From positions 1 through 64,000 of the forward strand of contig JAKACW010000005.1 in the NCBI GenBank assembly GCA_021821045.1: a stretch of 64,000 nucleotides of DNA, read 5' to 3'. Positions 2 through 58,380 of this stretch are shown here, piece by piece. A program made the translations under genes and the position numbers. The notes under the pieces were generated by a model, which saw only the letters and a program-made list of their open reading frames with translations, searched no databases and was not told the DNA's origin. How positions within the stretch are numbered: position 1 is the first letter of the stretch; each line of letters starts with the position of its first letter. The stretch comes from Pseudomonadota bacterium. GTDB taxonomy: Bacteria > Pseudomonadota > Gammaproteobacteria > JAADHS01.

Positions 2-595
2 CCGGCGGCGAGCAAGGACAATGTTGAATGGCAAGTCTCCGGCTGGAAGATAGCCGATATCGCTCTATCCAAGGGCGGTACGCTCCCGATGCAACTGCAA
101 AGCGCAAGCGTGAACGTCAACGGCAACCTGGCGTTGGCGGGCGAAGCCCTGAATGGAGCGGTCGACGCCAAGTTCCTCAACGCCGCATGGAAGAGCGACG
201 CCAAGGACGGCTGGGCGGCGCAAGTGGCGAAAACACTGGCCGCCATCAACACATTTTCCCTGACTGGCAATGTTCAAGGCGCGCTCAACTCGCCGGACAT
301 CTCAATCAAGTCCGATCTCGATCAACAAATCAAGGGCGCGGCCAAGGCGCAGCTGAAATCCCAACAAGCGGAGCTTGAGCAAAAACTAAAAGTTCGCTTG
401 GAGCAGGAAATCGAGAAGTCCGCTGGCCCCTACAAAGATCAGGTCGCCATGCTGACCCAAAGCGAAGGCAGCCTCGATGAGCGCATCAAGAAAATCGAAG
501 AAATGCTAAAGGCGGAAATGCAGTCGGCGGTGGATTCGAAGAAGGAAGAAGCTGAGCAAAAGCTTAAGGACAAGCTCAAGGGTTTGAAATTCTAG
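2..595 (+). CDS. TIGR03545-like envelope protein, C-terminal part (5' end outside window)
   Basis: The reading frame is open from base 2, so this is the last ~197 residues of a longer protein and no start is visible. The first ~100 residues alternate polar and hydrophobic residues in the AsmA/Mce-like beta style (for example MQLQSASVNVNGNLALAG), and the last ~90 are a charged, Lys/Glu-rich coiled coil ending in KDKLKGLKF. This combination, including a segment reading APYKDQ-like followed by SLDERIKKIEEMLKAEM, resembles the C-terminus of the uncharacterised TIGR03545 family of outer-membrane-containing bacteria; that family assignment is from memory. Its TAG stop shares the bases CTAG with the stop of the convergent gene on the other strand. 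Function unknown; an envelope or lipid-transport-like role is only an inference from the AsmA-like fold. Confidence 0.6.
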   Translation, partial: PAASKDNVEWQVSGWKIADIALSKGGTLPMQLQSASVNVNGNLALAGEALNGAVDAKFLNAAWKSDAKDGWAAQVAKTLAAINTFSLTGNVQGALNSPDISIKSDLDQQIKGAAKAQLKSQQAELEQKLKVRLEQEIEKSAGPYKDQVAMLTQSEGSLDERIKKIEEMLKAEMQSAVDSKKEEAEQKLKDKLKGLKF

Positions 596-1692
596 TACAT
601 GTGGACATAGTAAACGTGCACGCTCCCACTAATCAGCAGCAAGAACAATAGGGGCACATGGGCGTGGCGCCAGAATGCGAAGAACCGTTCGTAAAAGTTG
701 AAGAATGCGACCTTTTCGAGGGTTGACATGAAATTCTTCACATCCCGCTCGCATTGGTTCATTTCTGCGTCGCACTCAACACGGCTTTTCTTCTCGCCAT
801 TCTCCGCCGCTTTCAACTCATCTTTTAGACTACGCATGACATGTCGACGAACGCGCCGGCTGCGTTGCCCGTACCAAAGCAAATGCCAGCCCGCACGCAG
901 CAGCGACTTCGACGCCGTCAATGTCGTCCTCTTGAATGCGTCCAGTTGAGTTTGACCGTAGTCGCAGGTCAACGTGGTCATGGCTGCCTCAACATCCTTA
1001 ACCTGAGCGCGCCGACCACCCAGTCCATAATGGACTTTCGAGTACAAGTAACGGCCGATCACGCCGCTCAAGAACACCAACAACATGGTCGTCAGGAACA
1101 CGCCGCCATTCAACGATTGAAAGGTGAATGTCGAGTGCAGCACGCCGAGCAAGGGCCCGACCACGCCGAACACAATGTGCACCCGCAACCAGGCTTTCAT
1201 CATGCCGGTGGACCGAAACAGCTTGAGATGCTTGCTCGCACTGTAGGTAAATGCCAGCAACATCATCACGCCACCGACGAGGCCCATTGAGTACCCGATT
1301 CCTTCCTCCGCGGTATACATCGAGTCGTCCCAGTAGGCTCGGCCGACCACAAACAAACCTGCAAAAAGACCGACCAGTCCAAATGCCAAGAAAATCTCAC
1401 CGCCTTTGGCCAGTTTCTTCAACTGCGACGGGCTCACGGTTGCCGGCGCCGGAACCGTCGTCCCGCCGCTTTCGGTTTCTGCCGACTTCTCTGGGGCCGC
1501 CCGTCGTTCTCGATTGCTCTTTTCCAGACCGACGGCGCCGTCGGCGAGCGTGGAGGGGTCCGCATGGCGTATTTCTATCAGTGCATCTCTTATTTGCGCC
1601 AATTCCCCCATTGGGTCCACGGCCCGTGTGGTCGGCTTGAGCGGTTCGCTTGGACTCGGTGCCACATTTTGATTTGGTGATGGTTTCGTCAT
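592..1692 (-). CDS. Cytochrome b-like membrane protein with two H-X13-H heme-ligand pairs
   Basis: A 366-residue protein. Residues 1-95 are a soluble, Pro/Ser/Glu-rich leader. About five membrane segments follow (near 98-122, 133-155, 167-190, 195-220 and 345-366), with a charged, presumably cytoplasmic loop of ~110 residues before the last. One helix carries RVH-X13-HSTF and the final helix carries AH-X13-HVYY: two histidine pairs each spaced 14 residues, the spacing that holds two stacked b hemes in ferric reductase/NOX and cytochrome b type bundles. I infer a two-heme transmembrane electron carrier. The segment GVIGRYLYSKV is typical of bacterial ferric-reductase-like membrane proteins. 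ATG 1692 is chosen over the GTG four codons upstream because AAGGTG lies at ribosome-binding distance. It is divergent from the FeS/flavin oxidoreductase, which suggests they act together. The exact family is uncertain. Confidence 0.65.
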   Translation of the reverse strand: MTKPSPNQNVAPSPSEPLKPTTRAVDPMGELAQIRDALIEIRHADPSTLADGAVGLEKSNRERRAAPEKSAETESGGTTVPAPATVSPSQLKKLAKGGEIFLAFGLVGLFAGLFVVGRAYWDDSMYTAEEGIGYSMGLVGGVMMLLAFTYSASKHLKLFRSTGMMKAWLRVHIVFGVVGPLLGVLHSTFTFQSLNGGVFLTTMLLVFLSGVIGRYLYSKVHYGLGGRRAQVKDVEAAMTTLTCDYGQTQLDAFKRTTLTASKSLLRAGWHLLWYGQRSRRVRRHVMRSLKDELKAAENGEKKSRVECDAEMNQCERDVKNFMSTLEKVAFFNFYERFFAFWRHAHVPLLFLLLISGSVHVYYVHMY

Positions 1693-1857
1693 TTTGCTAA
1701 ACACCTTGTTGTGCCGACTAAATGTTTTCCGGTGCTACTCCGCTAGCGTGCGGTAATCTTGAGGACGCAGTCGAGACGTCGAATCTGCTTCGACCGCGTT
1801 TCGAAAAAGTTTTGCGATGTATGCCACAATTCCCGCAGTATGCCAGGAGTAGATGCC

Positions 1858-3189
1858 ATGAATGTGAATCCGTTGCTGTCGCTGGTCGGCGACTACTCAT
1901 TCCTACTGGTTTACGCGGTTCCCGTTTTGGTCATGTGGGCGTTCTACATCGGTCGCCGAAAACTCGCATCAAAGAGTAACTCCAGAATTCTCGAGAGCAT
2001 GCTAAAGGCGGGACTGACGGAACCGGCATCACTCCATCCGAAGATCAACCGCGACCTATGCATCGCGTGCAATTCCTGCGCCATTGCGTGTCCCGAACAG
2101 GATGTCTTAGGCATCGTGGATGATAAGGTGGAACTTATTAACCCCACTCACTGCATCGGGCACGGTGCCTGCGCCGCGGCCTGTCCAGTGGGCGCGATCG
2201 AGCTGGTTTTTGGTAGCGAAAAGCGCGGCGTCGACATTCCAAAGGTCGACGCGACTTTTGAAACCAACGTCCCGGGCATCTACATCGCCGGCGAACTCGG
2301 CGGAATGGGCTTGATCCGCAATGCGGTTTCACAGGGACGACAGGCTATGGATGCCATCGCCAAGCGGCGGGACATCCGTACCGGCAAGGGCTATGACGTC
2401 ATCATCGTGGGCTGCGGCCCGGCCGGTTTTTCCGCGACACTGAGTGCGAAACAGCATAAGCTCAACTATCTCACCATTGACCAGGAATCTTTCGGCGGCA
2501 CGGTATCGCACTATCCCCGTGGCAAGATCGTAATGACACAGCCCGCGGAATTGCCGCTGATCGGATCGGTGAAGTTCACGGAGACATCCAAGGAGGCTCT
2601 CATGGCGTTTTGGGAAGATGCGCGCAACAAGGCTCAAATATCCATCAACACGGGCGAGCAGATGCTGAGCGTCAAAAAACACCAGGGAGCTTTCGAGGTC
2701 ACGACGTCCAAGGGGGTCTACAACACCGCCACGGTGCTGCTGGCGATCGGCAGGCGGGGCACACCTCGGAAACTGGACGTGCCTGGAGAAGACCTGCCCA
2801 AGGTGGTGTACCGCCTCGTCGATCCCGAACAATACCGCGACAAACATGTACTGGTCGTTGGCGGCGGCGACAGTGCGCTGGAAGCGGCAATAAGCATTGC
2901 AGAGCAACCGGGAGCAACGGTCAGCCTGTCCTATAGAAGCGCCGCCTTTAGCCGCGCCAAAGAGAAAAATCGCGAGAAAGTCAGCGCTGCCGAAACGGCA
3001 GGGCGGTTGCGTGTATTGCTGAAATCCGAGGTAAAGGAAATAACAACGGAATCGGTCGCCGTAGAACATGACGGTCAACTCCTAGCGCTGCGCAACGATG
3101 CGGTTATTGTCAGCGCGGGCGGCGTATTACCGACGGGAATGCTCAAGGAATTGGGCATCGCGGTGGAAACGAAGCACGGAGTCGCGTAA
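1858..3189 (+). CDS. Membrane-anchored [Fe-S]/FAD NAD(P)-binding oxidoreductase
   Basis: 443 residues from ATG 1858, which has AGGAG eight bases upstream; an open frame runs further 5' to 1759 but lacks such a site. Residues ~8-28 form one membrane helix. Then comes a dicluster ferredoxin domain: CIACNSCAIACP is a full [4Fe-4S] motif, while the second reads CIGHGACAAACP, with His where the second Cys would be. From about residue 170 there is a thioredoxin-reductase-like flavoprotein: FAD site GCGPAG, NAD(P) site GGGDSALEAA and a closing motif near VIVSAGGVLP. The redox-active CxxC of thioredoxin reductases is absent, so electrons probably pass between nicotinamide, FAD and the FeS clusters. 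I infer exchange with the membrane cytochrome and, through it, the multiheme cytochrome. Direction of flow cannot be told from sequence. Confidence 0.8.
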   Translation: MNVNPLLSLVGDYSFLLVYAVPVLVMWAFYIGRRKLASKSNSRILESMLKAGLTEPASLHPKINRDLCIACNSCAIACPEQDVLGIVDDKVELINPTHCIGHGACAAACPVGAIELVFGSEKRGVDIPKVDATFETNVPGIYIAGELGGMGLIRNAVSQGRQAMDAIAKRRDIRTGKGYDVIIVGCGPAGFSATLSAKQHKLNYLTIDQESFGGTVSHYPRGKIVMTQPAELPLIGSVKFTETSKEALMAFWEDARNKAQISINTGEQMLSVKKHQGAFEVTTSKGVYNTATVLLAIGRRGTPRKLDVPGEDLPKVVYRLVDPEQYRDKHVLVVGGGDSALEAAISIAEQPGATVSLSYRSAAFSRAKEKNREKVSAAETAGRLRVLLKSEVKEITTESVAVEHDGQLLALRNDAVIVSAGGVLPTGMLKELGIAVETKHGVA

Positions 3190-3543
3190 CCACGACAAGC
3201 GTGCTCATCGGGCTCCCGCCTTTTGAGACGCGGCTCGCATAAACCATCCGAACGGCCAAAGGATATCTCGGATTGTGTGATGGGCGTTACATCCCCCTCC
3301 GCGAAGAGGCCGATAATCCCAAGCATGAACGACGAAATACCTGGCACGCGGACAGAGTCAACGGCAGTCATCCACCGCCGTAGCTCGTTGAAGTCGCAAG
3401 CAGGCGACGCCTTGCGCAGTCCGTACATGCGCAGGAGCCGGACGGAGCCGGCAGACGATAACAAACGGATTATCCATCCATTCAATTACCTGCGGCTACA
3501 TCACATGTCATACATTCCAGACCTGGGATGGCGACGGAAATTC

Positions 3544-3558
3544 TGGCACGAATTCTGC
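3544..3558 (+). promoter_or_regulatory. Candidate sigma54 (-24/-12) promoter
   Basis: TGGCACG at 3544-3550 and CTGC at 3555-3558 place GG and GC exactly 10 bases apart, the invariant spacing of RpoN promoters (TGGCACG-N4-TTGC). Transcription would start near 3570, about 80 bases before the multiheme cytochrome. The rest of the 460-base gap (3190-3649) shows no convincing gene. An activator site was not recognised. Confidence 0.45.
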
Positions 3559-3649
3559 CTAAAAACTCCAACGTCCGAACAGATCTGTGGACAACGTCCC
3601 GATTGGTTGCGACCAACACTTCTAACATGACCCAACATCCGAGATTGCC

Positions 3650-6600
3650 GTGCAATTCCGACCGCTGCAGCGCAACATTCGCGGAGATCGATCTCCGCGT
3701 CCCCTCCGACGCGACAGCGCATGGCTCGCGCCGCTGCTCCTGTTGCTCTTAGTCGCCCTCGCCCAGAACGCTTACTCTGAATCGAAGCCTTTCGACCATC
3801 TCGCCACAGGGTTTCCCTTAACCGGTGGCCACACCACTGTCGCTTGTGAACGTTGCCATATCGGTGGCGTCTTCGACGGAACGCCTACCCAGTGCGCTGC
3901 GTGCCATAACAACACCATTGCGCCGGGCCCTTCGTCGGACCATATCCCCACGACTGAAGCATGCGACGTGTGCCACGAAACTGTTGAGGAGAACTGGGCC
4001 ATCCCGCAAGGAAGCTTTAATCACCTGTCCGTTATCAGTGCCTGCGTGACCTGCCACGACAACAAAATCGCACCCGGAAAAGGCTCCTCTCACATCCGAA
4101 CGTCGGACGATTGTGAAAACTGTCACCGCACGAATACGTGGCAGGTCTACACAGTCGATCATCAGGACCTTTCTGGACAATGCGGCGTTTGTCACAACGG
4201 AGACGACGCCCGTGGCAAACCGCTGGTTCACATTCAATCGACTAACAACTGCGAGGCGTGCCATCACACCGAGAGATGGTCGCCCGAGAGGGAAGTTGCC
4301 CACGACGAGGTGCTGGGCACCTGCAGCAGCTGTCACGACGGCTCGTCGGCAACGGGACGGCCGGTCGACCATATACCGACCAACTCTGACTGTGGGACAT
4401 GTCATTCCGTTTCAACTTTTGCCGGCGCTTCGTTTGATCACGTCGGCGTCGCTTCCGGATGTGCGAACTGCCACAACGGCGACGCCGCGGTCGGAAAAAG
4501 CGCATCGCACATTCCGTCCACCGCCGTATGCGAAGCCTGCCATTCGATGACAGCATTCTCCCCGGAACTTGCCGTCGCTCACACTGAGGTCATTGGACTG
4601 TGCAGCGTATGCCATGACGGGACCGTCGCAACTGGAAAAGACATCGGTCACCTACCGACGTCAGCGGCGTGCGATTCCTGCCACAATACGACCGCTTGGT
4701 TGCCCGCCGCCTTCGACCACAGCGGCATCACTCAACCATGCGCGGACTGTCACTCGCACGCGCAGGGCTTCGTGTCCGCGGCCTCGCCCGGGCCGTCGAG
4801 CCACATTCCCACAACGGACGAGTGCGGCTCCTGCCACGGCACCGACTCGTGGACACCCGCCACGGTCAATCATCAAGCAGTCTCCGGCACCTGCGGCAGT
4901 TGCCATGACGGCACTACCGCCACCGGCAAGTCCGCCGATCACATCACCACCAGCGAAGACTGCGGCATCTGCCATACGACACGTAGCTTCGCCGGTGCGA
5001 CGTTCGACCACACCGGCATCACGGATAACTGCGTCAGTTGTCACGACGGCACGGCCGCCGTGGGTAAATCCGCCAGTCACATGGCGGCATCGACTGTCTG
5101 CGAAGCCTGCCATGCCACCTCGGCATTCACGCCGGCCACCGCCGTCGACCACGCCCAGGTGCGTGGTACCTGCAGCAGCTGCCATGACGGCGTTACCGCC
5201 ACCGGCAAGTCCGCCGATCACGTCACCACCAGCGAAGACTGCGGCATCTGCCATACGATTCGAGCCTTCGACGGTGCGACGTTCGACCATAGTTCCATCA
5301 CGTCGGGTTGCATCGCATGCCACAACTGCACCAATGCCACAGGTAAAACGCCGACCCACATGCCGACGACAAGCCTGTGCGAGAACTGTCATCTGAGCGA
5401 CACGTGGCAACCCGCCGTTACGGATCACAGCGAGGTCGTGGGAACCTGCTCCGACTGTCACAATGGTGAACGAGCGACCGGAAAGCCGGTGAATCACATC
5501 ACAACCTCCGCCAATTGCGACAGCTGTCACCAGACCAATGGGTGGCAACCCGCCACATTTAATCATGACGGTATCACCGATAACTGCACCACCTGCCATG
5601 ACGGTGTCCGCTCCACCGGTAGGCCGGTTACCCATATTTCATCGACGAACATTTGCGAGGATTGCCACTATGTGCAGGCATGGACGCCCGCTACGGTCGA
5701 TCACAACCAGGTACTTGGCACTTGCGCCGGCTGTCACAACGGCCAAACGGCGCCCGGCAAGCCCACCAACCATATCGCGACAACTGAGGGTTGTGACACC
5801 TGTCATAGCGTAAATGCCTGGACACCCGCAACATTCGACCACGCCAGCATTGTGGACGGCTGCGCAAACTGCCACAACGGCACCCAGGCGGTTGGAAAAC
5901 CCAACAACCATATACCGACGAGCAGCCTGTGCGAGACATGCCACTTCGTGCAGGCCTGGCGGCCCGCTGTGGTCGACCACGACGAAGTCGTCGGACCATG
6001 CAGCGGCTGTCACAACGGATCGCGCGCAACGGGCAAGCCGACGAACCATATCACCACGTCCGGCGAGTGCGACACGTGCCACGGCGTCAATGGCTGGTCA
6101 CCGGCCACCTTCGACCACGGATCGATCACGAGCGGATGCTACTCGTGTCACAACAACTCTCGGGCGCAGGGCAAGACGAACAACCACATTACCACCACCA
6201 ACGTCTGCGAAGATTGTCACATCACGCAGGCTTGGCGACCCGCCGTTGTTGACCATTCGCAGGTCTTGGGGACGTGCGGTCACTGCCACAACGGCCAGAC
6301 GGCACCCGGCAAGCCGTTGACCCATATCAGCACGACTGCCGAGTGCGATGCATGCCATTCGACCAATGCGTGGAAGCCCGCCACCTTCGATCACAGCACT
6401 ATTACCTCGGGCTGCGGCGGATGTCACAACGGAGTTAGCGCGACCGGAAAACCCAACGGTCATTTTGTAACGAGCATAGAGTGTGTCGAGTGCCACAGCG
6501 TATCGGCGTGGCGTCCCATAGCCTACGGTCATGCCTCGCCCAACTATCCAGGCAATCATCGCGGAAATCCGCCCTGCAGAGCTTGCCACAGCAGCAACAC

Positions 6601-6832
6601 GGAGTCGGTCACGTGGACATCCCCTGCATACAAACCCGACTGCGCCGGCTGCCATGCAACCGACTTCCGCAGCGGACCGCACAAAAAGACGGAGAATCCG
6701 CAAACCATCAACTATACGGTGGACGAACTGCGTGACTGCAGCGGCAGTTGCCACATCTATACGGACAATAGTTTCTCCCGAATTAAGGAATCGCGAAATA
6801 GTGAACATCGCCCTAGCGATGAACACTTTTAG
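3650..6832 (+). CDS. Giant secreted multiheme c-type cytochrome, 42 putative heme sites
   Basis: 1060 residues from GTG 3650. Residues ~20-43 (arginines, then a Leu-rich core ending near NAYSES) form a Sec signal peptide. By hand count the mature part has 41 CXXCH motifs, the first at C66-H70, plus one CXXXCH (CSGSCH, ~1030-1035): roughly one heme per 24 residues. The body is a tandem two-heme module of ~53 residues, roughly WxPATFDHxxI-x3-CxxCHNG, then AxGKPxxHIxT-x3-CxxCH. Each half carries an extra His (FDH or HI) suited to be the distal ligand, so bis-His low-spin hemes are expected. Such modules suggest an extended heme wire rather than a globular enzyme. The tail (KESRNSEHRPSDEHF) is hydrophilic, with no membrane anchor or lipobox. 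It lies eight bases before an outer-membrane barrel gene. Role inferred: periplasmic or extracellular electron conduction. Confidence 0.93.
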   Translation: MQFRPLQRNIRGDRSPRPLRRDSAWLAPLLLLLLVALAQNAYSESKPFDHLATGFPLTGGHTTVACERCHIGGVFDGTPTQCAACHNNTIAPGPSSDHIPTTEACDVCHETVEENWAIPQGSFNHLSVISACVTCHDNKIAPGKGSSHIRTSDDCENCHRTNTWQVYTVDHQDLSGQCGVCHNGDDARGKPLVHIQSTNNCEACHHTERWSPEREVAHDEVLGTCSSCHDGSSATGRPVDHIPTNSDCGTCHSVSTFAGASFDHVGVASGCANCHNGDAAVGKSASHIPSTAVCEACHSMTAFSPELAVAHTEVIGLCSVCHDGTVATGKDIGHLPTSAACDSCHNTTAWLPAAFDHSGITQPCADCHSHAQGFVSAASPGPSSHIPTTDECGSCHGTDSWTPATVNHQAVSGTCGSCHDGTTATGKSADHITTSEDCGICHTTRSFAGATFDHTGITDNCVSCHDGTAAVGKSASHMAASTVCEACHATSAFTPATAVDHAQVRGTCSSCHDGVTATGKSADHVTTSEDCGICHTIRAFDGATFDHSSITSGCIACHNCTNATGKTPTHMPTTSLCENCHLSDTWQPAVTDHSEVVGTCSDCHNGERATGKPVNHITTSANCDSCHQTNGWQPATFNHDGITDNCTTCHDGVRSTGRPVTHISSTNICEDCHYVQAWTPATVDHNQVLGTCAGCHNGQTAPGKPTNHIATTEGCDTCHSVNAWTPATFDHASIVDGCANCHNGTQAVGKPNNHIPTSSLCETCHFVQAWRPAVVDHDEVVGPCSGCHNGSRATGKPTNHITTSGECDTCHGVNGWSPATFDHGSITSGCYSCHNNSRAQGKTNNHITTTNVCEDCHITQAWRPAVVDHSQVLGTCGHCHNGQTAPGKPLTHISTTAECDACHSTNAWKPATFDHSTITSGCGGCHNGVSATGKPNGHFVTSIECVECHSVSAWRPIAYGHASPNYPGNHRGNPPCRACHSSNTESVTWTSPAYKPDCAGCHATDFRSGPHKKTENPQTINYTVDELRDCSGSCHIYTDNSFSRIKESRNSEHRPSDEHF
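3843..6520 (+). repeat. In-frame tandem repeat (~159 bp, two-heme module)
   Basis: Almost the whole cytochrome gene is built from degenerate ~159-bp units, each coding two heme motifs of alternating type (DH/VxGT type and HI/T type). Some adjacent units remain close at the DNA level: the blocks around 4890-5000 and 5180-5260 share long identical runs such as GCCACCGGCAAGTCCGCCGA, pointing to recent local duplication or gene conversion. Confidence 0.8.
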
Positions 6833-6840
6833 GGTTGACG

Positions 6841-9192
6841 ATGCGTTGCCTAATTCGACAGTGCTGGCATCTGCTAGTCGCGTGCGCAATAGCCGCCCCC
6901 GCGGCACTGGCGGATTCCCACGGTCTGATCGACCGCATCGACTACGAACAGGATGGCGAGAATCGATTCGCGCTGGTAATACTGACGGAGCGGCTGATGT
7001 ACCTCTCCCACTACCCGCCGGGAAACGCCGCAACCATTGAAATCAGGCTGAAGTCAGTCGACAACGCAGCGGGCGGTTTGCCCCCCGAAACGTTCCAGCG
7101 CACCCGCAGCGTCATGCTGGCGCCTCTTGCGCAGAAGTTCCCTCTAATCAGCGTGAGCTATGAGAAGGAATCGAACGACAACGTCGTATTCGTTCTGCGC
7201 TTTTCCGAAAACACACCTCTCCGAATTTCGCAGTCGAGGGACTTGCGCAGCCTTGAGATCGCGTTAACGGACTCCTTGCCGTCCAAGCAGGAAAAACGGC
7301 GGACAACCGTCGCCACGACCAGCGCCGACGAAAACCTCGTGGCACGCGCCGATCGACTGAAGCAACTTATGACCCTCGGCCAACGGTCCTTGGAGTCACA
7401 ACAATATGAGACTGCGCGCGCGGTGTTCGCGGACATTATCTATTTGGGTCCCCACCCCTATATGAGCGAGGCGGAGAAGCTTCACCGCCTGGCCCAGCAA
7501 GGAACGTCAACCAAAGCCTCTAACTCCGGCGAGCACTTCTTCACCATTGACGAACTCGAAAGCCTTGTGTCCCGGGCGGATGCGGTCATCAACAAAGGAG
7601 ACAACCGCCAAGCGATCGTGCTGTTCACCAAAATCGGCCGGCTTCCCGAGCACCCCTACTCGCCCCACGCGTTGGAAATGCTTGGTGTGGCGCGCCAACG
7701 CAATGGCCAGAGCGCTCACGCCAAAGCAAACTATCGGGACTACTTGGCCCGGTATCCGTCGGGCGACGGGGCCGTGCGGGTTCAGCAGCGGTTGGCCGAG
7801 CTGCTGGCCACGGGACGTACTCCCGAACCACGTCCCATGGAGAAGCTTAAGCAGGACGGCGTCGCCTCTACCGACACTGGATCCTTTCGCGCCGACCATT
7901 TCGGCATGCTGTCCCAGAGCTACTACCACGGAGACATCTCTTTCGACGGACTTGAGGAGGATCGGTCCGATCAGTCTCTATTGCTGACGCACCTTCAGGC
8001 GACCAGCCGCTGGCGCAATAGCAGATTCGACCTGCGCAGTAACATTTCCCTGGACCACGAGGAAGATTTTCTCGAACAACAGACCAGTGACGGAAGGATC
8101 GATATCTCGACTCTGTACCTGGAGAGCCGAGACAGCCGTTTTGACTACGCGGTCCGCATTGGTAGACAACCCGCGAACGCCGCCGGCGTGCTGGGTCGCT
8201 ACGATGGTGCCTGGCTGCAATACCGAGTTTCCGCAAGTCAGGCCGCCGACGTAGCAGTGGGTTTCCCGGTCGTGCTTTCCGACACCGACACCTTGGATAC
8301 CGACAAACGCTTCGTGACGGCGTCTTACGAAATGACGAATCTGTTCCAAAGCCTGGACCTTGTTCCCTATTTCCACGTTCAGCAGGACACCGGTGTTACC
8401 GAGCGCAGGGCAGTCGGGCTCGAAGCGCGTTATTTCTTGCCGCGCGGCAATTATTTTGGTCTTCTCGACTACGATACGTCGTTCAGTGATGTCAACATTC
8501 TGATGCTTAACGGCAACTTGGTCTTGAGCACCGCACGATCGGTTCATTTCAGCTTTGACAGACGCAAAAGCCCACTGCTCTTCCTCAGTAATGGATTGAT
8601 CGACAACGTCGCAGTCAACTCGCTGGAGCTCGCCAAAGCGATCTTTTCCGAAGAGGAGCTGCGCGCCTTAGCGAAGGATCAAAGCGGCACCACTACGTTG
8701 CTAAACCTGGGCTGGACGGAGCAACTGCGCGGCACGGTCCAAGCGAGCGTTGACATATCGCGTTCCACACACGATTACTCCGCCAACCTTCGTGCCGCCG
8801 ACCCGGCCCTTGGCGAGTCCGAATCGGCCACCGGCTTATCCGGGCAACTGCGTTTTCAGGACCTAGTCATGCCTGGCGATCTAACCGTCCTCGGCGTTTT
8901 CTATGCAAATTCGGATCGCTACAACAATAAAGGCGTGTCGGCGCAGAACCGGCTGCGCATTCCCGGCAGCTGGTCCATCGAATCCAGACTTCGAGCCGAT
9001 TCCCGCGAGGACACAAACGGCAGCCGGTTAACGCGTCTGAGACCATCGGCAAGGGCAATTTTCGATAGGAAACGAAGCTACACCATCGAAGCGGAGATCG
9101 GCTGGGAATTGACGGACTATGGTGGCGCCAGCAGCAACGCCGATACTCAGCGCTTTTTCTACAACGTGGGGTATCGCTGGACGTTCCGGTAA
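6841..9192 (+). CDS. Outer-membrane beta-barrel protein with AMIN/TPR-like N-terminal region
   Basis: 783 residues. The start is set at ATG 6841, five codons into the signal-bearing frame, with AGGG just upstream and only 8 bases after the cytochrome stop, so the two are cotranscribed. Residues 1-25 form a signal peptide ending near ALADS. Residues ~30-140 look like a small beta domain of the AMIN kind. Residues ~155-330 are helical repeats of TPR type (for example SLESQQYETARAVFADIIYL and ANYRDYLARYPSGDGAVRVQ). From ~340 to the end the sequence alternates in the manner of a transmembrane barrel and closes with FFYNVGYRWTF, an outer-membrane-like terminal strand. I infer a porin sheath or secretion/anchoring partner for the multiheme cytochrome, analogous in logic but not in sequence to MtrB-type porins. 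Confidence 0.7.
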   Translation: MRCLIRQCWHLLVACAIAAPAALADSHGLIDRIDYEQDGENRFALVILTERLMYLSHYPPGNAATIEIRLKSVDNAAGGLPPETFQRTRSVMLAPLAQKFPLISVSYEKESNDNVVFVLRFSENTPLRISQSRDLRSLEIALTDSLPSKQEKRRTTVATTSADENLVARADRLKQLMTLGQRSLESQQYETARAVFADIIYLGPHPYMSEAEKLHRLAQQGTSTKASNSGEHFFTIDELESLVSRADAVINKGDNRQAIVLFTKIGRLPEHPYSPHALEMLGVARQRNGQSAHAKANYRDYLARYPSGDGAVRVQQRLAELLATGRTPEPRPMEKLKQDGVASTDTGSFRADHFGMLSQSYYHGDISFDGLEEDRSDQSLLLTHLQATSRWRNSRFDLRSNISLDHEEDFLEQQTSDGRIDISTLYLESRDSRFDYAVRIGRQPANAAGVLGRYDGAWLQYRVSASQAADVAVGFPVVLSDTDTLDTDKRFVTASYEMTNLFQSLDLVPYFHVQQDTGVTERRAVGLEARYFLPRGNYFGLLDYDTSFSDVNILMLNGNLVLSTARSVHFSFDRRKSPLLFLSNGLIDNVAVNSLELAKAIFSEEELRALAKDQSGTTTLLNLGWTEQLRGTVQASVDISRSTHDYSANLRAADPALGESESATGLSGQLRFQDLVMPGDLTVLGVFYANSDRYNNKGVSAQNRLRIPGSWSIESRLRADSREDTNGSRLTRLRPSARAIFDRKRSYTIEAEIGWELTDYGGASSNADTQRFFYNVGYRWTFR

Positions 9193-19465: not shown

Positions 19466-22400
19466 TTAGCGCGGCGGCGGATAGCGAATCGGCCCACCCG
19501 GCGTGCCGATCGTTCCCGAACTCAATGACGCGCTGCCGAAATCCACCAAATATGCAGTGCCGAAATTCAACGACGATTTATCGCCGTCGGTTACCGTAAC
19601 CAATTCCGGCAGATCCAGCGTCCGCAGCGCGCCGCAGGCTTCGCCCGGATCGCACAGTATCCCGTCTTGATCCATGTCGCTGCCGGCAAAAATGAAGTAG
19701 TCGCCCGGCGCGACGGCATCGATCGCGAAGCGGTACTCGCCCTTTTCGGTATCGGGCAACACGTGCACCGTATGCGCCTCCTTGCTCTCATCCTTGGGTA
19801 ACAGCAACACATAATGCGATCCGGTGTTGGTACTGACCGGACCGTTAAAAACACCCATCAGGACGTCAACGGTCGCGGCGCCGTCACTGGTTGCGATAGC
19901 GATCGATGCCGAGTAGTTGCCGTCGGCCAAGTTTCGACGATTGACCTGCGCGGTGTAGATGCCCAGCCCGTCGGTATCGACTTGTTTGCGCACGACGCTT
20001 AACCACGGCTGATTGCCCTTGACCGACTCCACTCGCAGCGTCGCCCCGCCGCTGTTGTTGATTCTGAAGTCCAGTGCCACGGATCCAAATCCGAAATTCA
20101 GCGCGCTAGGTTGCACCACCAGGCTCGGGGGACGCGGCGACGGATTGGTGCCGCTCTCGGCAAGGGTACGCGCCTCAAACACCGCCTTGAATGCATCGAT
20201 CAAGCCATACCCAAACTGTTCGTCGCGCCCTGAGGGGCCCAACTCCTCGGTGATCTTTCCGCTGGCCAGCAAGTCGTCGAATATATCGGGCGTCAGCCCA
20301 GGAAACACAGACTTCATCAACGCCGCGATGCCGGCGACGTGCGGCGCGGCCATGGACGTGCCCTCCAACATCGGGTAGCGATAGAGAATCGTTCCCGTGC
20401 GATCGGATCCGCCGGTGCTCAACACGCCGTCACCCAAACCGTCGGCGTTGGCGTCCTGACTCAAGTCGCCGCCGGGCGCGGCCACGGCGATATGGGCGCC
20501 AAAGTTTGAATACGGCGCGAGCTGCTTGGTCGAGCCGACGGCGCTGACCGCGACGACCCCGGGATAACCCGCGGGATACATTGGATCGCCCGTTCGCTCG
20601 TTGCCGGCCGCCGCGACAACGATTACGCCGGCTTGGCGTACCTGTTGAATCGTCTCCATAAGCGCATCCGAGAACTCGCTGGAACCGAAACTCAAGTTGA
20701 GAATATCGGCTCGGCGTGCCGGCAACGTGTTCGAATCATTGGCTAAACCGGCCGCGAACTGCAGGGCTTCAATCACATCGCCCGTGGTTCCACCAAGTCG
20801 CCCCAGAACCCGCAACGGCATGATCTTCGCGCCCCACGCCACACCGGCCACACCTTGATTGTTGTTCGTGGCCGCGGCGATGGTGCCGGCGACATGGGTG
20901 CCGTGAAAGGTGCTGCCGTTGGGCCCTTGATCGCCCGGATCGTCGGGATTCGGATCGCGACCGTTGCCGTCACCCGCGCTGGCTGCGCTGCTGATAAAGT
21001 CGTACCCTGGCACGGTCTGACCCACCATATCCGGATGGTTCAACAGCACGCCGCTATCGACGACCGCGACAATGACATCGGCGGAGCCGGTGGTCAGATC
21101 CCACGCCGCGGGCAGATGCACCAGCGGATAGTGCCACTGCATGTTGTACATAGGGTCGTTTGGCACGGCCAGCGGCTTGACGTAGTAGTTAGGTTCGGCA
21201 AACGCCACATCCGGTTGAGCGCGCAAGGCCTTAATGACAGCAAGGGTCTCGTATTTTCGCGCCGTTCTCTCATCGGCAAACGCCCGCGTCGCCGACTTAA
21301 CGAGCGCCCGCGGGCTTGTGTTCGCCGCGATCTTGTAAACCGCGGCCCGAGACAGATCCACGGCCTGCGGCGTGAGCGCCGCCGCGGCCGGTGAACGAGA
21401 GAGACTGCGCGTCGTCGCCGATGCAGCCCACTTGATAATCGCTTCGCCCGGCACAAAATCGCTGCCCATACGCAGCGCTGAACGCGAAACTGCGGCAGCA
21501 GACGGCTGCCCCACCGTCAGCACATAATTTGATCCGCCAACCGCCGCGCACTGCCCAATCGTCGCGCATGACGCCACCTCGATGAAGTAATTCCCGTCTT
21601 GGCCCGCCGTCAGGCGCTCGGCTTCGCCGGTGCCTATCGAAAAGTCAATCAACGTGCCCGCGCTGTTCCACAGAAACAAGTCAAGGTCGGCGGCCAACGC
21701 ATCGCCGATGTAAAGCACAACTTGTTGACCGGCGGCCAGACGCACCGAGTAGAAGTCGGACACATCGCCAAGTTCGTACGAGCGACCGAACGGTCCGGTT
21801 CCCGGCGCGTTGACATAGCCGCCCACGGTGACCGGATTGCTGATCACTTGGGCCGATTCGATAGCGTTGTTGGCGACGGGCTCGATCAATTCGTCATTAA
21901 TGTCGCCATCCACGTCCGTAAACGGCGCAATCGCAATGGTGCCGCACAAGGTGAAAGTGCCCGGCGGGCCGGGGATTGCCTCGCGGTCGTTTATCGTGAC
22001 GCTCACCTCACGTTGCGCGCCGTTACTCGCCGTCAGCCGCAACCGTGCTCGGCTGCCACATTGGTCCGTATCCAAACTGGATCGCACCGACACGCTTTGA
22101 AAAGCCTGCCAGTTGTCGGCGGTGAACGTCAGCGGCGCCGGATCGACCAACGTGACGCCAGGGTCGGCGTCGACCAACTCGGGGGTTACGGTGATAGCGG
22201 TCGGCGGCTCGGCGTCCAGCTTAACGCCCACGGTGCCGCGCGCGCCCTCTTCCAACGTCAGCGACTGCAGCGTGGTCACAATGCTCGCCGATCCCGGCGC
22301 GATATAGGTGTCGACCTCGGAAACGATCCATTCCGCCGCCACGATCCCCGGCGCAACCGCGCGAATAATCGCATTGCCGTTGTCACTGTCGTCGTCCAAG

Positions 22401-22813
22401 GCCGCCTCCGCCGTGAACGGAACGAAAACGTCCCAATCGGCCGCCGCGATGACGATGTCGCTCGGAGAAACGCTGATATCCTCGTCGCCTTCCACACGCG
22501 AGACCGACACGGTGACTTCATCCACGGTGGGACGCGCGGATAGCTTGAATCGGAATATGCGTTGCCCACCTTCGTCGACGGTCAATGGCTGCGGAACAGC
22601 CTCCGCGACGATGCTCAGCGGCAAGGGATTGTTGGAACCGTCACCCGTTGTGTCTCCGGGCGCGTCGCTGCCACCGCCGCCGCACGCGGCCAAAATGACG
22701 CACGCGACAGTCACGGCCCATGCACGGTTACAAATTGCGATGAACTTGGCATCACTTGCCACGAGGTTACGTCCTGTAATCGGCGACGATGGTTTAAGCG
22801 CGGGGAAAAACAA
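19466..22813 (-). CDS. Subtilisin-like (S8) serine protease lipoprotein with extra N-terminal beta domains
   Basis: 1115 residues. A lipobox VILAAC puts the lipid-anchored Cys near residue 44; a GTG start 17 codons later (22762) is also possible. Two Calx-beta/cadherin-like domains (~55-160 and ~170-277) precede a PPC-type domain (~345-435, DFYSVRLAAGQQVVLYIGD). The S8 domain has the full triad: Asp586 in VAVVDSG, His637 in HGTHVAGT and Ser820 in GTSMAAPHVAG. A C-terminal region ends with DMDQDGILCDPGEACG, an Asp-rich calcium-site-like loop closed by two Cys. It is predicted to sit on the outer membrane or outside the cell and to degrade proteins. The next gene on the strand is a shorter paralogue lacking the N-terminal domains. 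No type 2 secretion or sorting signal was recognised. Confidence 0.9.
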   Translation of the reverse strand: MFFPALKPSSPITGRNLVASDAKFIAICNRAWAVTVACVILAACGGGGSDAPGDTTGDGSNNPLPLSIVAEAVPQPLTVDEGGQRIFRFKLSARPTVDEVTVSVSRVEGDEDISVSPSDIVIAAADWDVFVPFTAEAALDDDSDNGNAIIRAVAPGIVAAEWIVSEVDTYIAPGSASIVTTLQSLTLEEGARGTVGVKLDAEPPTAITVTPELVDADPGVTLVDPAPLTFTADNWQAFQSVSVRSSLDTDQCGSRARLRLTASNGAQREVSVTINDREAIPGPPGTFTLCGTIAIAPFTDVDGDINDELIEPVANNAIESAQVISNPVTVGGYVNAPGTGPFGRSYELGDVSDFYSVRLAAGQQVVLYIGDALAADLDLFLWNSAGTLIDFSIGTGEAERLTAGQDGNYFIEVASCATIGQCAAVGGSNYVLTVGQPSAAAVSRSALRMGSDFVPGEAIIKWAASATTRSLSRSPAAAALTPQAVDLSRAAVYKIAANTSPRALVKSATRAFADERTARKYETLAVIKALRAQPDVAFAEPNYYVKPLAVPNDPMYNMQWHYPLVHLPAAWDLTTGSADVIVAVVDSGVLLNHPDMVGQTVPGYDFISSAASAGDGNGRDPNPDDPGDQGPNGSTFHGTHVAGTIAAATNNNQGVAGVAWGAKIMPLRVLGRLGGTTGDVIEALQFAAGLANDSNTLPARRADILNLSFGSSEFSDALMETIQQVRQAGVIVVAAAGNERTGDPMYPAGYPGVVAVSAVGSTKQLAPYSNFGAHIAVAAPGGDLSQDANADGLGDGVLSTGGSDRTGTILYRYPMLEGTSMAAPHVAGIAALMKSVFPGLTPDIFDDLLASGKITEELGPSGRDEQFGYGLIDAFKAVFEARTLAESGTNPSPRPPSLVVQPSALNFGFGSVALDFRINNSGGATLRVESVKGNQPWLSVVRKQVDTDGLGIYTAQVNRRNLADGNYSASIAIATSDGAATVDVLMGVFNGPVSTNTGSHYVLLLPKDESKEAHTVHVLPDTEKGEYRFAIDAVAPGDYFIFAGSDMDQDGILCDPGEACGALRTLDLPELVTVTDGDKSSLNFGTAYLVDFGSASLSSGTIGTPGGPIRYPPPR

Positions 22814-22957
22814 ATGAGTTCAGGAACGACCCATGCCAGCACGCGTCAACGGATCGCGCGTCATCCCCGTTCGGGTGCTGAATGCCAATTGTAATCAATA
22901 TGCGAGCGAAAAAATTGCGGTTTGTGAACAAATTTGTGCGCGGCCGCGCAAACGAAT

Positions 22958-25591
22958 TTACTTTGTGGGGAGTCCCAAAGACCGCACCGGTATTGAACCG
23001 GCGGTAAAGTTGATCGGATAGCCGGTGTCGAAGTCCAGCGCCGTCGCGTTGCTTTGAGTAACCACAACCATTTGCGGCTGCTCGAGTGTCCTGAATGCTC
23101 CGCATGACTCACCGGGATCGCACAGCTGGCCGTCGCCGTCCAAATCGCTTCCGGCGTAGAGGTGATAGGTTCCCGGCGGCACACCCCTCAACGTGAACCG
23201 ATACTGCCCGCCCGTAGGCGCAACCGTCGCGCTCGCAATCACTTGGTGGGTATCGGGCTCCAACAGCCGCACCAGTTGCACCCCGGCGTTGGCGGCGATG
23301 GGCGCCGCGCGCACCTCGAACACAACGTTCACGGTCATGTTGCCGCCGGTGGTGGCGATCGTGATGGTTCCCGTGCGGGTTCCGCTTGTTTGATTCTGAC
23401 GATCCAAGCGCGCCGTATACATGCCCACACCTTCGGCATTGACTTGCTTTTGAACAATCTGAAGCCATGGTTGACTTGGCGTCACGGCAGTGACCCGCAG
23501 TCCGGGGCCCCCTACCGAGTTGACTGAGAAATCGAGCGCCGCCAAGGTCGCCCCAAAGTTCAAGGCCGACGGCTGCGCGACGGCCTGGGGCGGCAACGGC
23601 GGCGGGTTGTTGCCGTTTTGCGCGAGGGTGCGCGCTTCCGAAACGGCCTTGAAGGCATCGATCAAACCGTAACCAAACCGGTCGTCACGCCCGGCCACGC
23701 CCAAGTCTTCCGTAATTCGCCCGCTGGCCAGCAAGTCATCGAACGTTTGCGGCGTCAAACCGGAAAACACCGACTTCATCAGCGCCGCCACCCCGGCCAC
23801 GTGGGGCGAGGCCATGGACGTTCCCTGGAACACCGGATAGCGAAACTGAATGGCCCCGGTGCGATCCGAGCCGCCGGCGCTCAATACACCGTCGCCGGAA
23901 CCGTCGCCGTTCGCATCTTTCGACAAATCTCCGCCGGGCGCCGCCACGTCGATGTATGCGCCGAAGTTCGAATACGGCACGAATAGTTTCGTGAAATCCA
24001 CCGCGCTCACGGCGACAACGCCCGGATACCCCGCCGGATACATCACGTCGCTGGTACTCTCATTGCCGGCGGCTGCGATAACGATCACGCCGGCATCGCG
24101 CACTTGTTGAATCACGTCTTGCGCCGTCTGCGAGAATTGTGGGCCGCCGAAACTGAGATTGAGAATATCCACCTTGCGCGGCGGAGTCGTTCCGGAATCG
24201 TTAGGCAATCCGGCGGCGTAGCGCATGGCTTGCGTGACATCGTAGTCCGTCCCTCCCAGCTCGCCCAGCACGCGCAGCGGCATGACCTTCGCGCCCCAAG
24301 CAATGCCCGCCACTCCCTGACCGTTGTTCGTGGCCGCAGCGATCGTACCGCTCACGTGCGTGCCGTGAAACGAGCTGCCGTTGGGACCTTGATCGCCCGG
24401 ATCGTCGGGATTGGGATCGATGCCGTCGCCGTCGACCGAGTTGTTCGTGCTGCGAATGAAATCGTAGCCGGCAACCGTCTGGCCCTGAATGTCCGGGTGA
24501 TTCAACAACACGCCGGTGTCGATGACGCCGACGATGACATTGGCCGAACCGGTGGTCAGATCCCACGCCGCCGGCAAATTCAAAATCGGATAATGCCACT
24601 GCATGTTGTAAAGCGGGTCCGTGGGCACGGCCAGCGGTTTGACGACGTAGTTGGGTTCGGCCAGCACAACGTCGGCGCGGGCGCGAAGTTCGCGAATCGC
24701 GAGCAAAGTCTCGAATTTGCGGGCGAGTTCCTCCGTCGCAAACGTGCGGACCGGCTCGACAGGATTCACCGCTCGAATCGCGCCATTCCCGTTAGCCGCT
24801 TCGACCTTGTAAAGCATTTCCCGCGATACATCGCCACCCTGCGCCACGAGCCCGGTGGCCGCTGCCGCCGTAAGACTTCGCGTGGCGGCCGTGCTTGCCC
24901 ACTTCACGATGACATCGTCGGCGACAAAATCGTCGCTGAGTCGCAACGCCGACGCTGACGCCGCCGCCGTGGGTTGACCGATCGTCAGCACGTAGTTGGA
25001 CCCGCCCATGGCCGCACAGCGGCTGACGCAAGCCGCGACTTCGACGAAGTAATCACCATCGTTGGCAACGTCGACTTGCAGAAAGTCGCCCGGACCCAAA
25101 GCCGCATTAACGACGGTTCCACTGCTGTCGCGCAAGTAAAGGTCCAAATCGACAGGCTCGGCCGTGCCGCGGGCGCCCACGACAGTATCGCCGACATGCA
25201 ATGTGACCTGCTGCCCGGCGTTGAGCCGCACGGCGTAAAAATCCGACACATCGCCACCCTGGCGGGAACGCCCCACGGGTCCGGTGCCCGGCGCATTGAC
25301 GTAACCGCCAACCGTCACTGGATTGGAAACCGGCTGTGCCCGAGCGATGGCGTCGTTCGGCGCGTACGGAGCCGCCGGGTCATTGACGTCACTGTCCACG
25401 AGGCTAAACGGAGGCGCGGTGATCGTGCCGGTCAATGTGTAGGTTGTCGGGCTACCCGTCGTATTGCCGACGTTGCTTCCCGGCGGGGCTTTTTTGGCGC
25501 CGCCGCCCCCGCACGCCGCCAGAAGCAGACAAAACGTCGCGATTATGGCCACGCAAGCGGACGACGAACGGACTGTGGGGATCTTTGGCAC
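22958..25591 (-). CDS. Subtilisin-like (S8) serine protease lipoprotein, paralogue
   Basis: 877 residues. The lipobox LLAAC gives Cys27. A PPC-like domain (~110-205) precedes a propeptide-like stretch and the S8 domain with Asp358 (GVIDTG), His409 (HGTHVSGT), Asn510 in AAAGNES and Ser592 (GTSMASPHVAG). The C-terminus repeats the DLDGDGQLCDPGESCG motif of its neighbour. From the PPC domain on, the two proteins align along their whole length, so they arose by tandem duplication; this copy lacks the two Calx-beta-like domains. It probably lies upstream in the same transcript (144 bases between them). Confidence 0.9.
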   Translation of the reverse strand: MPKIPTVRSSSACVAIIATFCLLLAACGGGGAKKAPPGSNVGNTTGSPTTYTLTGTITAPPFSLVDSDVNDPAAPYAPNDAIARAQPVSNPVTVGGYVNAPGTGPVGRSRQGGDVSDFYAVRLNAGQQVTLHVGDTVVGARGTAEPVDLDLYLRDSSGTVVNAALGPGDFLQVDVANDGDYFVEVAACVSRCAAMGGSNYVLTIGQPTAAASASALRLSDDFVADDVIVKWASTAATRSLTAAAATGLVAQGGDVSREMLYKVEAANGNGAIRAVNPVEPVRTFATEELARKFETLLAIRELRARADVVLAEPNYVVKPLAVPTDPLYNMQWHYPILNLPAAWDLTTGSANVIVGVIDTGVLLNHPDIQGQTVAGYDFIRSTNNSVDGDGIDPNPDDPGDQGPNGSSFHGTHVSGTIAAATNNGQGVAGIAWGAKVMPLRVLGELGGTDYDVTQAMRYAAGLPNDSGTTPPRKVDILNLSFGGPQFSQTAQDVIQQVRDAGVIVIAAAGNESTSDVMYPAGYPGVVAVSAVDFTKLFVPYSNFGAYIDVAAPGGDLSKDANGDGSGDGVLSAGGSDRTGAIQFRYPVFQGTSMASPHVAGVAALMKSVFSGLTPQTFDDLLASGRITEDLGVAGRDDRFGYGLIDAFKAVSEARTLAQNGNNPPPLPPQAVAQPSALNFGATLAALDFSVNSVGGPGLRVTAVTPSQPWLQIVQKQVNAEGVGMYTARLDRQNQTSGTRTGTITIATTGGNMTVNVVFEVRAAPIAANAGVQLVRLLEPDTHQVIASATVAPTGGQYRFTLRGVPPGTYHLYAGSDLDGDGQLCDPGESCGAFRTLEQPQMVVVTQSNATALDFDTGYPINFTAGSIPVRSLGLPTK

Positions 25592-39451: not shown

Positions 39452-42400
39452 TTGTTCAATTTCTTTGGAGTCTGGAAGCGCCTCGAACAGTCTTACGGGA
39501 CGCGAGACACGCAACGTGACAAGCTGAATACCGAGCCGTTGCGCTCCGAGCTTTTCGGAGCCGAGCAGCTCAAGCGTCACGCGATCACATTGGCGCGCCA
39601 GCATCGAATCGATCCACGGCCCAGTCCGGACAAGTTGCTACCGCGACTGGCCGACAACGAGCGCGTCCTGCTTGCCACGTATGATAGGGTAAGCGCCGCC
39701 GCGTCGGCGGGACAGCGGATCGCCCCTGCGGAGGCTTGGCTGCTCGACAATTTCTATCTCATCGAACAGCAGATCAATTTGGCGCGTCGGCATTTGCCGC
39801 GCGGATACAGCCGCAAATTGCCGCGACTGGCGGAGGGTCCCGCCGCGGGCTCCCCTCGCATTTACGAACTTGCCTTGGAGTTTATTTCCCACCAGGACGG
39901 ACGTGTCGACACGGACTACGCCAACAGCTTCGTCGCCGCATACCAGAGCGTTCAACCGCTTCGACTCGGGGAATTGTGGGCATTCCCGATCATGCTGCGA
40001 CTGGCTTTGCTGGAAAACGTTCGGCGTGTCGCGTCGCGCATCGCTCGTCGGCGCCTGGAGCGAGATACGGCGGTCGCTTGGGCCGACCGCATGCTCGAAA
40101 CCGCCGAGAACGAGCCCAAGCAGCTCATCCAACGGCTCGCCGAGTTCGCCAACGCCGATGTCCCGCTGACCGCATCATTTGTCGATGAATTCTACGCGAG
40201 ACTCCAGGCGCAGGGCCCCGCGATGTCCTTCGTGCAAACTTGGGTCGAGCAGAGCCTGCTCGACCAGGGCGTAACCGCCACACAGTTGTTGCAGGCGGAG
40301 GGCCACACGGTGGCGGCCAGTCAGATCACCATCGCCAACAGCATTGGCAGTTTCCGCTTCATCGGCTCTATTGATTGGACGGTTTTCGTCGAGACGCTCA
40401 GCGTTGTCGAGCAGACATTGCGGGAAGACCCTGCAGGAATGCACGCCCGCCAGGATTTCGCCACCCGCGATCGATACCGTCACGCCATCGAAGACATAGC
40501 GAAGGTCAGCTCTTATAGCGAATGGGAGGTGGCGCGCCAGGCGGTGGCGCTGGCTCAAGCCGCCGCCCAACGATCGGGAACAGACGATCGCAGCGCCCAT
40601 GTCGGTTACTACCTAACAGATCGCGGTCGAAGCAGCCTCGAACACGCAGCCGGCTGCAATGTGTCATGGACCTTGCGCGCCTCTCGCTGGGTTCGCCGAT
40701 CGCGCTTGGCGTTTTACCTCGGCTCGATCCTGTTGCTTACCGCTGCGGCCGTGGCAGAGGTCCTTGTCATGGTTGCCGAGGCCGGGCTCGGAATGTGGTG
40801 GTACGGGTTCTTTGCGATAACCGGCATCATTGGCGCATCGGCGTTGACCGTATCGCTCGTTAACCGCCTTATCACGCTTTTCGTACCGCCCCGTTCGCTG
40901 CCACGACTGGACTTCTCCCAAGGCATTCCTCCCGATCATCGCGCGATGGTCGTTGTCCCAACATTGCTTAGCAATCCGCTCGAGGTTGCCGGCCTGCTCG
41001 AAGCGCTGGAGATTCGCTATCTGGGCAATCGAGATCCCAACCTGTTCTTTGCCCTGCTGACCGATTTTCGCGACGCACCCGAACGTGTCCAGCCAGACGA
41101 TGAGGAATTGCTCGCCGTTGCGCGCGAGGGAATTCGCGCGCTGAACGCGACGTATCGCGACGATCGGACCTGTATCTTCTATTTGTTTCATCGGCCGCGT
41201 GTCTGGAATCCGTTCGAACGGGTTTGGATGGGCTATGAGCGAAAACGGGGGAAGATAGAACAGTTCAATGCGCTGCTGCGAGGTGTGACGCATGGTGCTG
41301 CGTCCGAGAATGAGCCCGCGGCGTTCTCGGACGTTGTTGGAGACCCGTCCATTCTCGGTTCGATCAAATACGTCATCACCTTGGACACCGACACGCAGTT
41401 GCCACGCGATGCGGCGCGCGCGCTGATTGGCAACATTGCACACCCACTTAACCGACCGGTGTACGATTCCGCCAGGGGGCGCGTGGTTGAAGGCTACGCC
41501 ATTCTGCAGCCGCGCGCCACGATCAGCCTGTCCAGCGCCGGCCAGTCCCGGTTCACGCGATTGTTCGCCGGCGAAGCGGGCATCGATCCCTACACCCGCG
41601 AGGTATCGGACGTTTACCAAGATCTTTTCGGTGAAGGTTCGTTTATCGGCAAGGGCATCTACGATGTGGACGCCTTTCGCCAGGCGGTGGATGGCCGTTT
41701 TCCGGAGAACCTCGTTCTCAGTCACGACTTGCTGGAAAGCGGCTACGCGCGTTCGGCGCTGGTGACCGATGTCGAGCTGATTGAGGAACATCCGGCCAGT
41801 TACGCGGCGGAGGCCAGTCGGCGCCACCGCTGGATACGCGGTGACTGGCAGCTGTCCGGTTGGCTCCTCCCGCGGATTCCCGCACCGCCCGGATCGAAAG
41901 CGAAGCAACAGCCTAACCCCCTCTCGGCCTTGTCGGTGTGGAAACTGTTCGACAACCTGCGCCGCAGTCTCGTGGCGCCGGCGCTCCTTGCTTTTCTGAC
42001 CATGGGATGGCTGGTTGGTCCCGGCCCGACATGGTTCTGGATTCTGCTGGTGGCGGCCGTGGTCTTCCTGCCCGCATTGGTGGGAGGCGTAATTGAAGTG
42101 CTCGGCAAGCCGGCGGAGCGCGATTGGTTGGTGCATTTGATCCTGGCAAGCAGATCCGTGACCCGTCCGATGGTGCTCGCTTTTTTAACGTTGGTGTTTC
42201 TGCCATACGACGCGATGATCTGCTTGGACGCGATCCTGCGCTCGGGCGTGCGAATGCTGTTCACTCGACGTGGACTGTTGCTCTGGCATATGCCTACCTA
42301 CACCCGTCGCAATGCGCGCCGCACACTGGGTGACTTTGTCCGCGAGATGTGGTTCGCGCCCGCTCTGGCGCTGGCCCTGGCATGGGCGCTGTCGGAAACC

Positions 42401-58191: not shown

Positions 58192-58380
58192 ATGTTCAGC
58201 ATGAACGGGAAGCAGCTGAGCAAATTATCAGGGATAAGTTATCGCCACGTGATGCGCCTCACGGCCGAAGGAATTCTACCGGCGACACGTGACGCGAGCG
58301 GATTCATAACCTACGACCAAAAAGCGCTTGATGTGCTTCTGGCTTACGTAGCGAAGCCGCGAGGTTCGCGACGGCGATGA
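58192..58380 (+). CDS. Small HTH protein, MerR/AlpA-like
   Basis: 62 residues from ATG 58192 (GGAG seven bases upstream). The core GKQLSKLSGISYRHVMRLTAEGILPA is a MerR/excisionase-type winged helix. Such proteins at the start of an element usually act as excisionase or transcription switch. It overlaps the next gene by ATGA. Confidence 0.7.
   Translation: MFSMNGKQLSKLSGISYRHVMRLTAEGILPATRDASGFITYDQKALDVLLAYVAKPRGSRRR

Follow-up and report, generated by a model that had tools for sequence, protein, structure and literature searches.

The segment at 592–9192 of the window, by which we mean the whole 64,000-nucleotide stretch of DNA analysed here, carries four genes, for a five-helix predicted di-heme-b protein, a membrane-anchored Fe-S/FAD/NAD(P) oxidoreductase, a cytochrome c of 41 hemes and a TPR protein with a predicted 22-strand barrel, and is most economically read as a trans-envelope electron conduit of the PCC3 family with an NAD(P)-linked module (probability about 0.55). 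PCC3 is a type of porin-cytochrome complex that He et al. described in 2017 (PMC5566968); it has been surveyed in Gallionellaceae (PMC10734462) and Leptothrix (PMC13386937) and is functionally unverified (PMC12442390). It occurs in many iron-cycling and symbiotic bacteria without an assigned function or direction, and is discussed as a possible iron oxidase. The first-pass annotation, which had called the four genes an undescribed system, placed all of them correctly, but 'undescribed' fails, given an exact PCC3 signature in the inner-membrane protein, barrel and cytochrome matches to PCC3 loci, the PCC3 gene order in relatives, and the presence of named PCC3 carriers among these. The locus is a real, coherent variant of the functionally open PCC3 kind, and novelty is limited to the flavoprotein and ankyrin components, a putatively permuted domain and the reduced gene set in the window.

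Assignment of the locus to the PCC3 type

The inner-membrane protein (IMP) gene (592–1704, minus strand) encodes 370 residues with five hydrophobic segments, the motifs W172-X3-H176-X13-H190 and W345-X3-H349-X13-H363, and SGVIG at 213–217. It thereby shows every element of the PCC3 IMP as defined, namely five TM helices, SGXXG on TM4 and WX3HX13H on TM3 and TM5 (PMC5566968). Of the 62 IMPs from related loci, every one carries the two WX3HX13H motifs and 60 carry SGXXGR. Two b hemes are predicted from these motifs, so that the membrane protein proposed earlier is borne out in its motifs and segments, its heme sites staying at the level of prediction. No Pfam or PDB family scored above cut-off with the IMP and, for the ferric reductase domain PF01794, there was no Pfam match at E ≤ 0.1.

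The cytochrome gene (3650–6832, plus strand) encodes 1060 residues with 41 CXXCH motifs (25.9 residues per heme), compared to a mean of 0.6 and a maximum of 4 in composition shuffles. Motif spacing is exactly 23 residues in 32 of 40 cases, a His lies seven residues upstream in 37 of the 41 motifs, and the protein matches Cytochrome_C7 (2e-45). Its homologues in PCC3 loci are the repeat cytochromes rather than those of the 21-heme type, and it shares with the former the repeats, the many hemes and the low number of residues per heme; the extracellular location of this PCC3-type wire is predicted, and its secretion, assumed in the first-pass annotation, would follow from a signal peptide. Directly after it, the barrel gene (6835–9192, plus strand) encodes 785 residues, for which an AlphaFold2 model from a 38-sequence alignment (mean pLDDT 83.5) comprises a small beta-domain, TPR helices and 22 long antiparallel strands, a predicted outer-membrane barrel as had been claimed. 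Foldseek matches of the model in the PDB were porins, ushers and the TPR-barrel BcsC. This many-stranded protein is homologous to the barrels that adjoin IMP, 21-heme and repeat cytochrome genes in PCC3 loci, and is hence a PCC3-family porin.

The window locus thus resembles PCC3 in its IMP, porin and many-heme repeat cytochrome, but lacks a periplasmic multiheme cytochrome and has, between IMP and cytochrome, a flavoprotein that is not one of the four genes by which PCC3 was defined. PCC4 (He et al. 2017) has the same IMP motif pattern and other redox proteins in its cluster, but with three periplasmic cytochromes (4, 5 and 10 hemes) and no extracellular one; assignment to PCC4 was rejected because the window has a single multiheme cytochrome gene, of 41 hemes, and relatives of the locus show PCC3-type synteny. 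MtrCAB, MtoAB and PioAB likewise combine a porin and a multiheme cytochrome across the outer membrane, but the window locus lacks a decaheme MtrA-type gene and its porin is a TPR-barrel. Membership in the MtrAB/MtoAB group was rejected, as the cytochrome scored 155 bits with the DmsE/MtrA-type model (cut-off 192) and the barrel had no MtrB match in NCBIfam. The Methylobacter bioanode cluster described in 2026 is of the MtrAB type, not PCC3 (PMC13322032).

A membrane-anchored flavoprotein with a putatively permuted FAD segment

The gene at 1858–3189 (plus strand) encodes a protein of ~443 residues with an N-terminal membrane anchor, two ferredoxin-type motifs and a Pyr_redox_3 match (3e-41), in keeping with the membrane-anchored FeS/FAD NAD(P) oxidoreductase of the first-pass annotation. 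Its ORF opens with TTG at 1759, and the start may be upstream of 1858 (TTG 1759 or ATG 1840). Cysteines 68/71/74/78 form the first 4Fe-4S motif, and the second, C99-x2-H102-x2-C105-x3-C109, has His replacing one Cys. This CxxHxxCxxxC form is common to five aligned flavoproteins and was seen throughout a set of 80 loci that is partly biased toward it, one of the two scan patterns having contained the motif. In Betaproteobacterial flavoproteins (L078, L089, L090, L094, L096, L105, L106), the first motif lacks one Cys (CxGSGxC), with CxxSxxC-like forms, having Ser or containing Ala, in place of CxxCxxC; both Fe-S clusters there hence depart from four cysteines.

The segment FETNVPGIYIAGELGGMGLIRNA stands ahead of the GxGxxG motif in the flavoprotein. 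Used as a profile, it gave hits (best E = 0.0013) to a FAD motif that is C-terminal in glutamate synthase small chain, thioredoxin reductase and glutathione reductase-like enzymes. When the segment was moved to the domain end, coverage became full-length (Pyr_redox_3, 1–305/305; Pyr_redox_2, 1–291/291; TrxR, 1–296/300), with a score gain of ~4–5 bits. Together, these comparisons support a circularly permuted flavodomain in which the C-terminal FAD segment would precede the N-terminal one, the bit gain alone being modest. An AlphaFold2 model from five sequences was mediocre (pLDDT 67.5) and was left out of the evidence for permutation.

The closest fold matches are the thiol-disulfide reductases YpdA and TrxR, and the flavoprotein shares FAD and NAD(P) Rossmann folds with these and with TrxR-like FNR. 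It differs from YpdA/TrxR, however, in its permuted FAD segment, added ferredoxin domain, membrane anchor and lack of a disulfide, and falls short of both curated families (162 of the 340 bits required for YpdA; 85 of 343 for TrxR). Neither the window sequence nor its aligned relatives has a CxxC outside the Fe-S motif, and the one cysteine elsewhere is unconserved; there is thus no redox disulfide, and a role as thiol reductase was rejected. Given the Fe-S motifs and the FAD and NAD(P) folds without a redox disulfide, the Fe-S clusters are likely the electron outlet of the flavoprotein.

The flavoprotein is a near-constant partner of PCC3 genes

The first-pass annotation took the four genes to be one system and expected their families to occur together across genomes. 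We examined 274 genomes drawn evenly from the class, with cut-offs of E ≤ 1e-60 for the flavoprotein and, for the IMP, strong matches only (E < 1e-45), and found the flavoprotein in 34, the IMP in 33 and the barrel in 35. All three were present together in 31 of the 37 genomes with any of them, and 237 had none (Fisher p ~1e-36, a statistic that ignores phylogeny). Positive genomes come from more than 25 families, and none of the three genes is present in either of the two genomes of the window's own family, which indicates that the three share gain and loss. For 22 flavoprotein genes out of 37, a divergently oriented IMP gene lies less than 1 kb away. Moreover, 80 named loci were retrieved with the flavoprotein alone as query, and among the 47 that had 4 kb or more of flanking DNA on each side the IMP was found in 44 and another PCC3 gene in 46. 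The claim of one system is thus upheld by both co-occurrence and physical adjacency.

The linkage extends to named PCC3 carriers, namely Bradyrhizobium sp. STM 3843, listed as a carrier by He et al. (PMC5566968), and five Gallionella genomes. In the latter, the periplasmic cytochromes have 24 hemes, consistent with the 21/24/27-heme class of Gallionellaceae PCC3 (PMC10734462). Besides Proteobacteria, flavoprotein carriers include records labelled Nitrospinaceae, Omnitrophota and Deltaproteobacteria. Where an ORF of at least 150 residues starts near the end of the flavoprotein gene, it belongs to one family in 54 of 63 such loci (L027–L106); repeats of the Sel1 and ankyrin types were identified in the four copies analysed, and the family's sequences open with a signal-peptide-like stretch. 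The Sel1/ankyrin protein is therefore probably periplasmic, as judged from its sequence, and is a candidate unreported PCC3 component. The main texts of the PCC3 papers searched name neither a flavoprotein nor an ankyrin protein as part of PCC3, a supplementary listing being possible; relative to these papers, the flavoprotein as near-constant partner and the probably periplasmic Sel1/ankyrin protein after it are new. The flavoprotein also offers a marker gene for PCC3 and, as an NAD(P)-type partner, a concrete entry point at the inner membrane that bears on direction.

A reduced gene set and a second, complete cluster

In related genomes the gene order is IMP, 21-heme cytochrome, repeat cytochrome and barrel, which is the PCC3 order. 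The periplasmic cytochrome of these relatives usually has 18, 21, 24 or 27 hemes and is normally encoded after the heme-b gene. In the window, IMP and flavoprotein genes diverge as they usually do, but it is the flavoprotein, not the IMP, that is followed by cytochrome and barrel, and the cluster is without the periplasmic multiheme cytochrome that is part of PCC3, where its median heme number is 21. The 460-bp gap at 3190–3649 contains no CXXCH in six-frame translation, and hence no 21-heme gene or remnant; an assembly search located the only full-length 21-heme gene of the 98%-complete assembly on contig C126. The locus was therefore filed as a PCC3-derived variant, and the earlier claim that its four genes together span both membranes needs correction, as without the periplasmic cytochrome of the relatives these genes alone do not obviously cross the periplasm. 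Heme numbers of the periplasmic cytochrome in related loci are, with few exceptions, divisible by three (18, 21, 24, 27, 33), as if length changed by three-heme units, whereas those of the repeat cytochrome range from 8 to 85 without such a constraint.

Contig C126 bears a second, paralogous PCC3 cluster (970–24900; L016/L017), missed in the first-pass annotation and complete in that all four PCC3 gene types are present. It encodes an IMP, a flavoprotein, an ankyrin protein (missing at the window locus), a barrel, a 21-heme cytochrome and cytochromes of 73, 37 and 33 hemes, with a further 10 + 13 hemes split over two retrieved stretches; flavoprotein and IMP genes are co-directional and 13 bp apart. 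The window locus may borrow its periplasmic wire from this cluster. A recent duplication of the C126 cluster is unsupported by the flavoprotein tree, in which the window copy groups with those of other species and is not sister to the C126 copy, and hence is no fresh duplicate. An L,D-transpeptidase gene (YkuD) lies inside the C126 cluster, and on contig C136 (L114:8358–12260) a 1300-residue, 51-heme repeat cytochrome has no PCC3 neighbour in 15 kb.

Proposed electron path and alternatives

In the NAD(P)-linked conduit that we favour, electrons would pass between cytosolic NAD(P)H or NAD(P)+ and the FAD of the membrane-anchored flavoprotein, and from there, through its two predicted Fe-S clusters, to or from the two putative b hemes of the five-helix IMP, which it would contact. 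The IMP would exchange electrons with a periplasm-spanning ~21-heme cytochrome, encoded on C126 and not in the window, and this in turn with the TPR-porin, the 41-heme wire and an extracellular redox partner. By analogy, the inner half would follow a split version of ferric reductase/NADPH oxidase logic, in which a flavin-NAD(P) module feeds two stacked b hemes. Ferric reductases and NADPH oxidases (PF01794) likewise have two HX13H motifs on two helices and a FAD/NAD(P) module as feeder, but the IMP does not match PF01794, its flavin module would be a separate TrxR/YpdA-like Fe-S protein and its acceptor a cytochrome wire. Linkage is no proof of electron transfer between flavoprotein and IMP. 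More tentatively, and with somewhat less than even odds, PCC3 in general may be a machine of six components, in which flavoprotein, heme-b IMP, one wire in the periplasm and one outside the cell, porin and periplasmic Sel1/ankyrin protein serve direct, quinone-free coupling of cytosolic NAD(P)H to the exterior. If so, it would be a trans-envelope NADPH-oxidase-like conduit, or would run in reverse for CO2 fixation. A porin-cytochrome conduit that has pyridine-nucleotide chemistry built in would, to our knowledge, be without precedent.

The first-pass annotation had left the conduit NAD(P)H- or quinone-linked, and genome-wide linkage strengthens the former. He et al. liken the PCC3 IMP to quinone-active cytochromes b and propose a quinone link (PMC5566968). 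In such a model the quinone pool is the partner with which the IMP exchanges electrons, and the flavoprotein could be a separate, co-regulated enzyme, for example in redox sensing or balancing. Flavoprotein and IMP genes being usually divergently transcribed, not in one operon, suits this model, but their tight co-gain and co-loss, the near-constant adjacency and the co-directional pair on C126 do not, and Fe-S clusters and a membrane anchor are suited to delivery to a membrane heme protein; we consider the quinone-linked model unlikely, at about one chance in four by our reckoning of this evidence. Still less probable is an accessory assembly factor outside the electron path that would, for instance, reduce heme or cysteine thiols for the large cytochromes c. 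The YpdA and TrxR fold matches and the extreme heme numbers encoded at these loci would be in line with such a role, but the protein has neither a CxxC nor a spare conserved cysteine for dithiol chemistry, and the positive-inside rule puts its flavodomain in the cytosol, when cytochrome c maturation is periplasmic.

A different possibility concerns the window copy itself, which might be a decaying or specialised PCC3 remnant, a paralogue minus the periplasmic cytochrome and no longer a complete conduit. The absent 21-heme and ankyrin genes, the gap free of CXXCH and a gene order unlike that of relatives are what such a remnant would leave. None of the four ORFs is disrupted or short of a motif, however, the complete cluster in the same genome includes the missing part, and the flavoprotein tree does not make the window copy a sister of that on C126, and hence we regard a remnant as improbable.

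For the favoured NAD(P)-linked conduit, standard potentials make flow from NAD(P)H to the outside downhill, and reduction of NAD(P)+ by extracellular electrons requires a low-potential donor or energy input. With the flavoprotein as partner, outward flow from NAD(P)H would thus be energetically easy but direct NAD(P)+ reduction by Fe(II) would not. Sideroxydans ES-1 expresses both of its PCC3 clusters less when grown on Fe(II) than on thiosulfate (PMC8788666), and PCC3 proteins rank low to middling in a magnetite study of ES-1 (PMC12016527); neither result lends support to PCC3 as an Fe(II) oxidase in this strain. The window also encodes a bacterial-type RuBisCO large chain, probably of form II (56069–57448, plus strand; 459 residues; PRK13475 equivalog, 896 bits), with a divergent LysR gene (55027–55944, minus strand). 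This gene pair makes an autotrophic host probable, and uptake of electrons therefore conceivable. No match over cut-off was obtained for SoxB.

Other genes in the window

Two adjoining genes for large secreted subtilases (S8) lie at 19466–25591 (minus strand), and 39452–48106 (plus strand) encodes a 2884-residue membrane protein that, like cyclic beta-glucan synthases, combines glycoamylase and GH94 domains. Near the window end, a gene for a Prim-Pol primase with an AAA_25 domain (58377–60491, plus strand) suggests an integrated mobile element.
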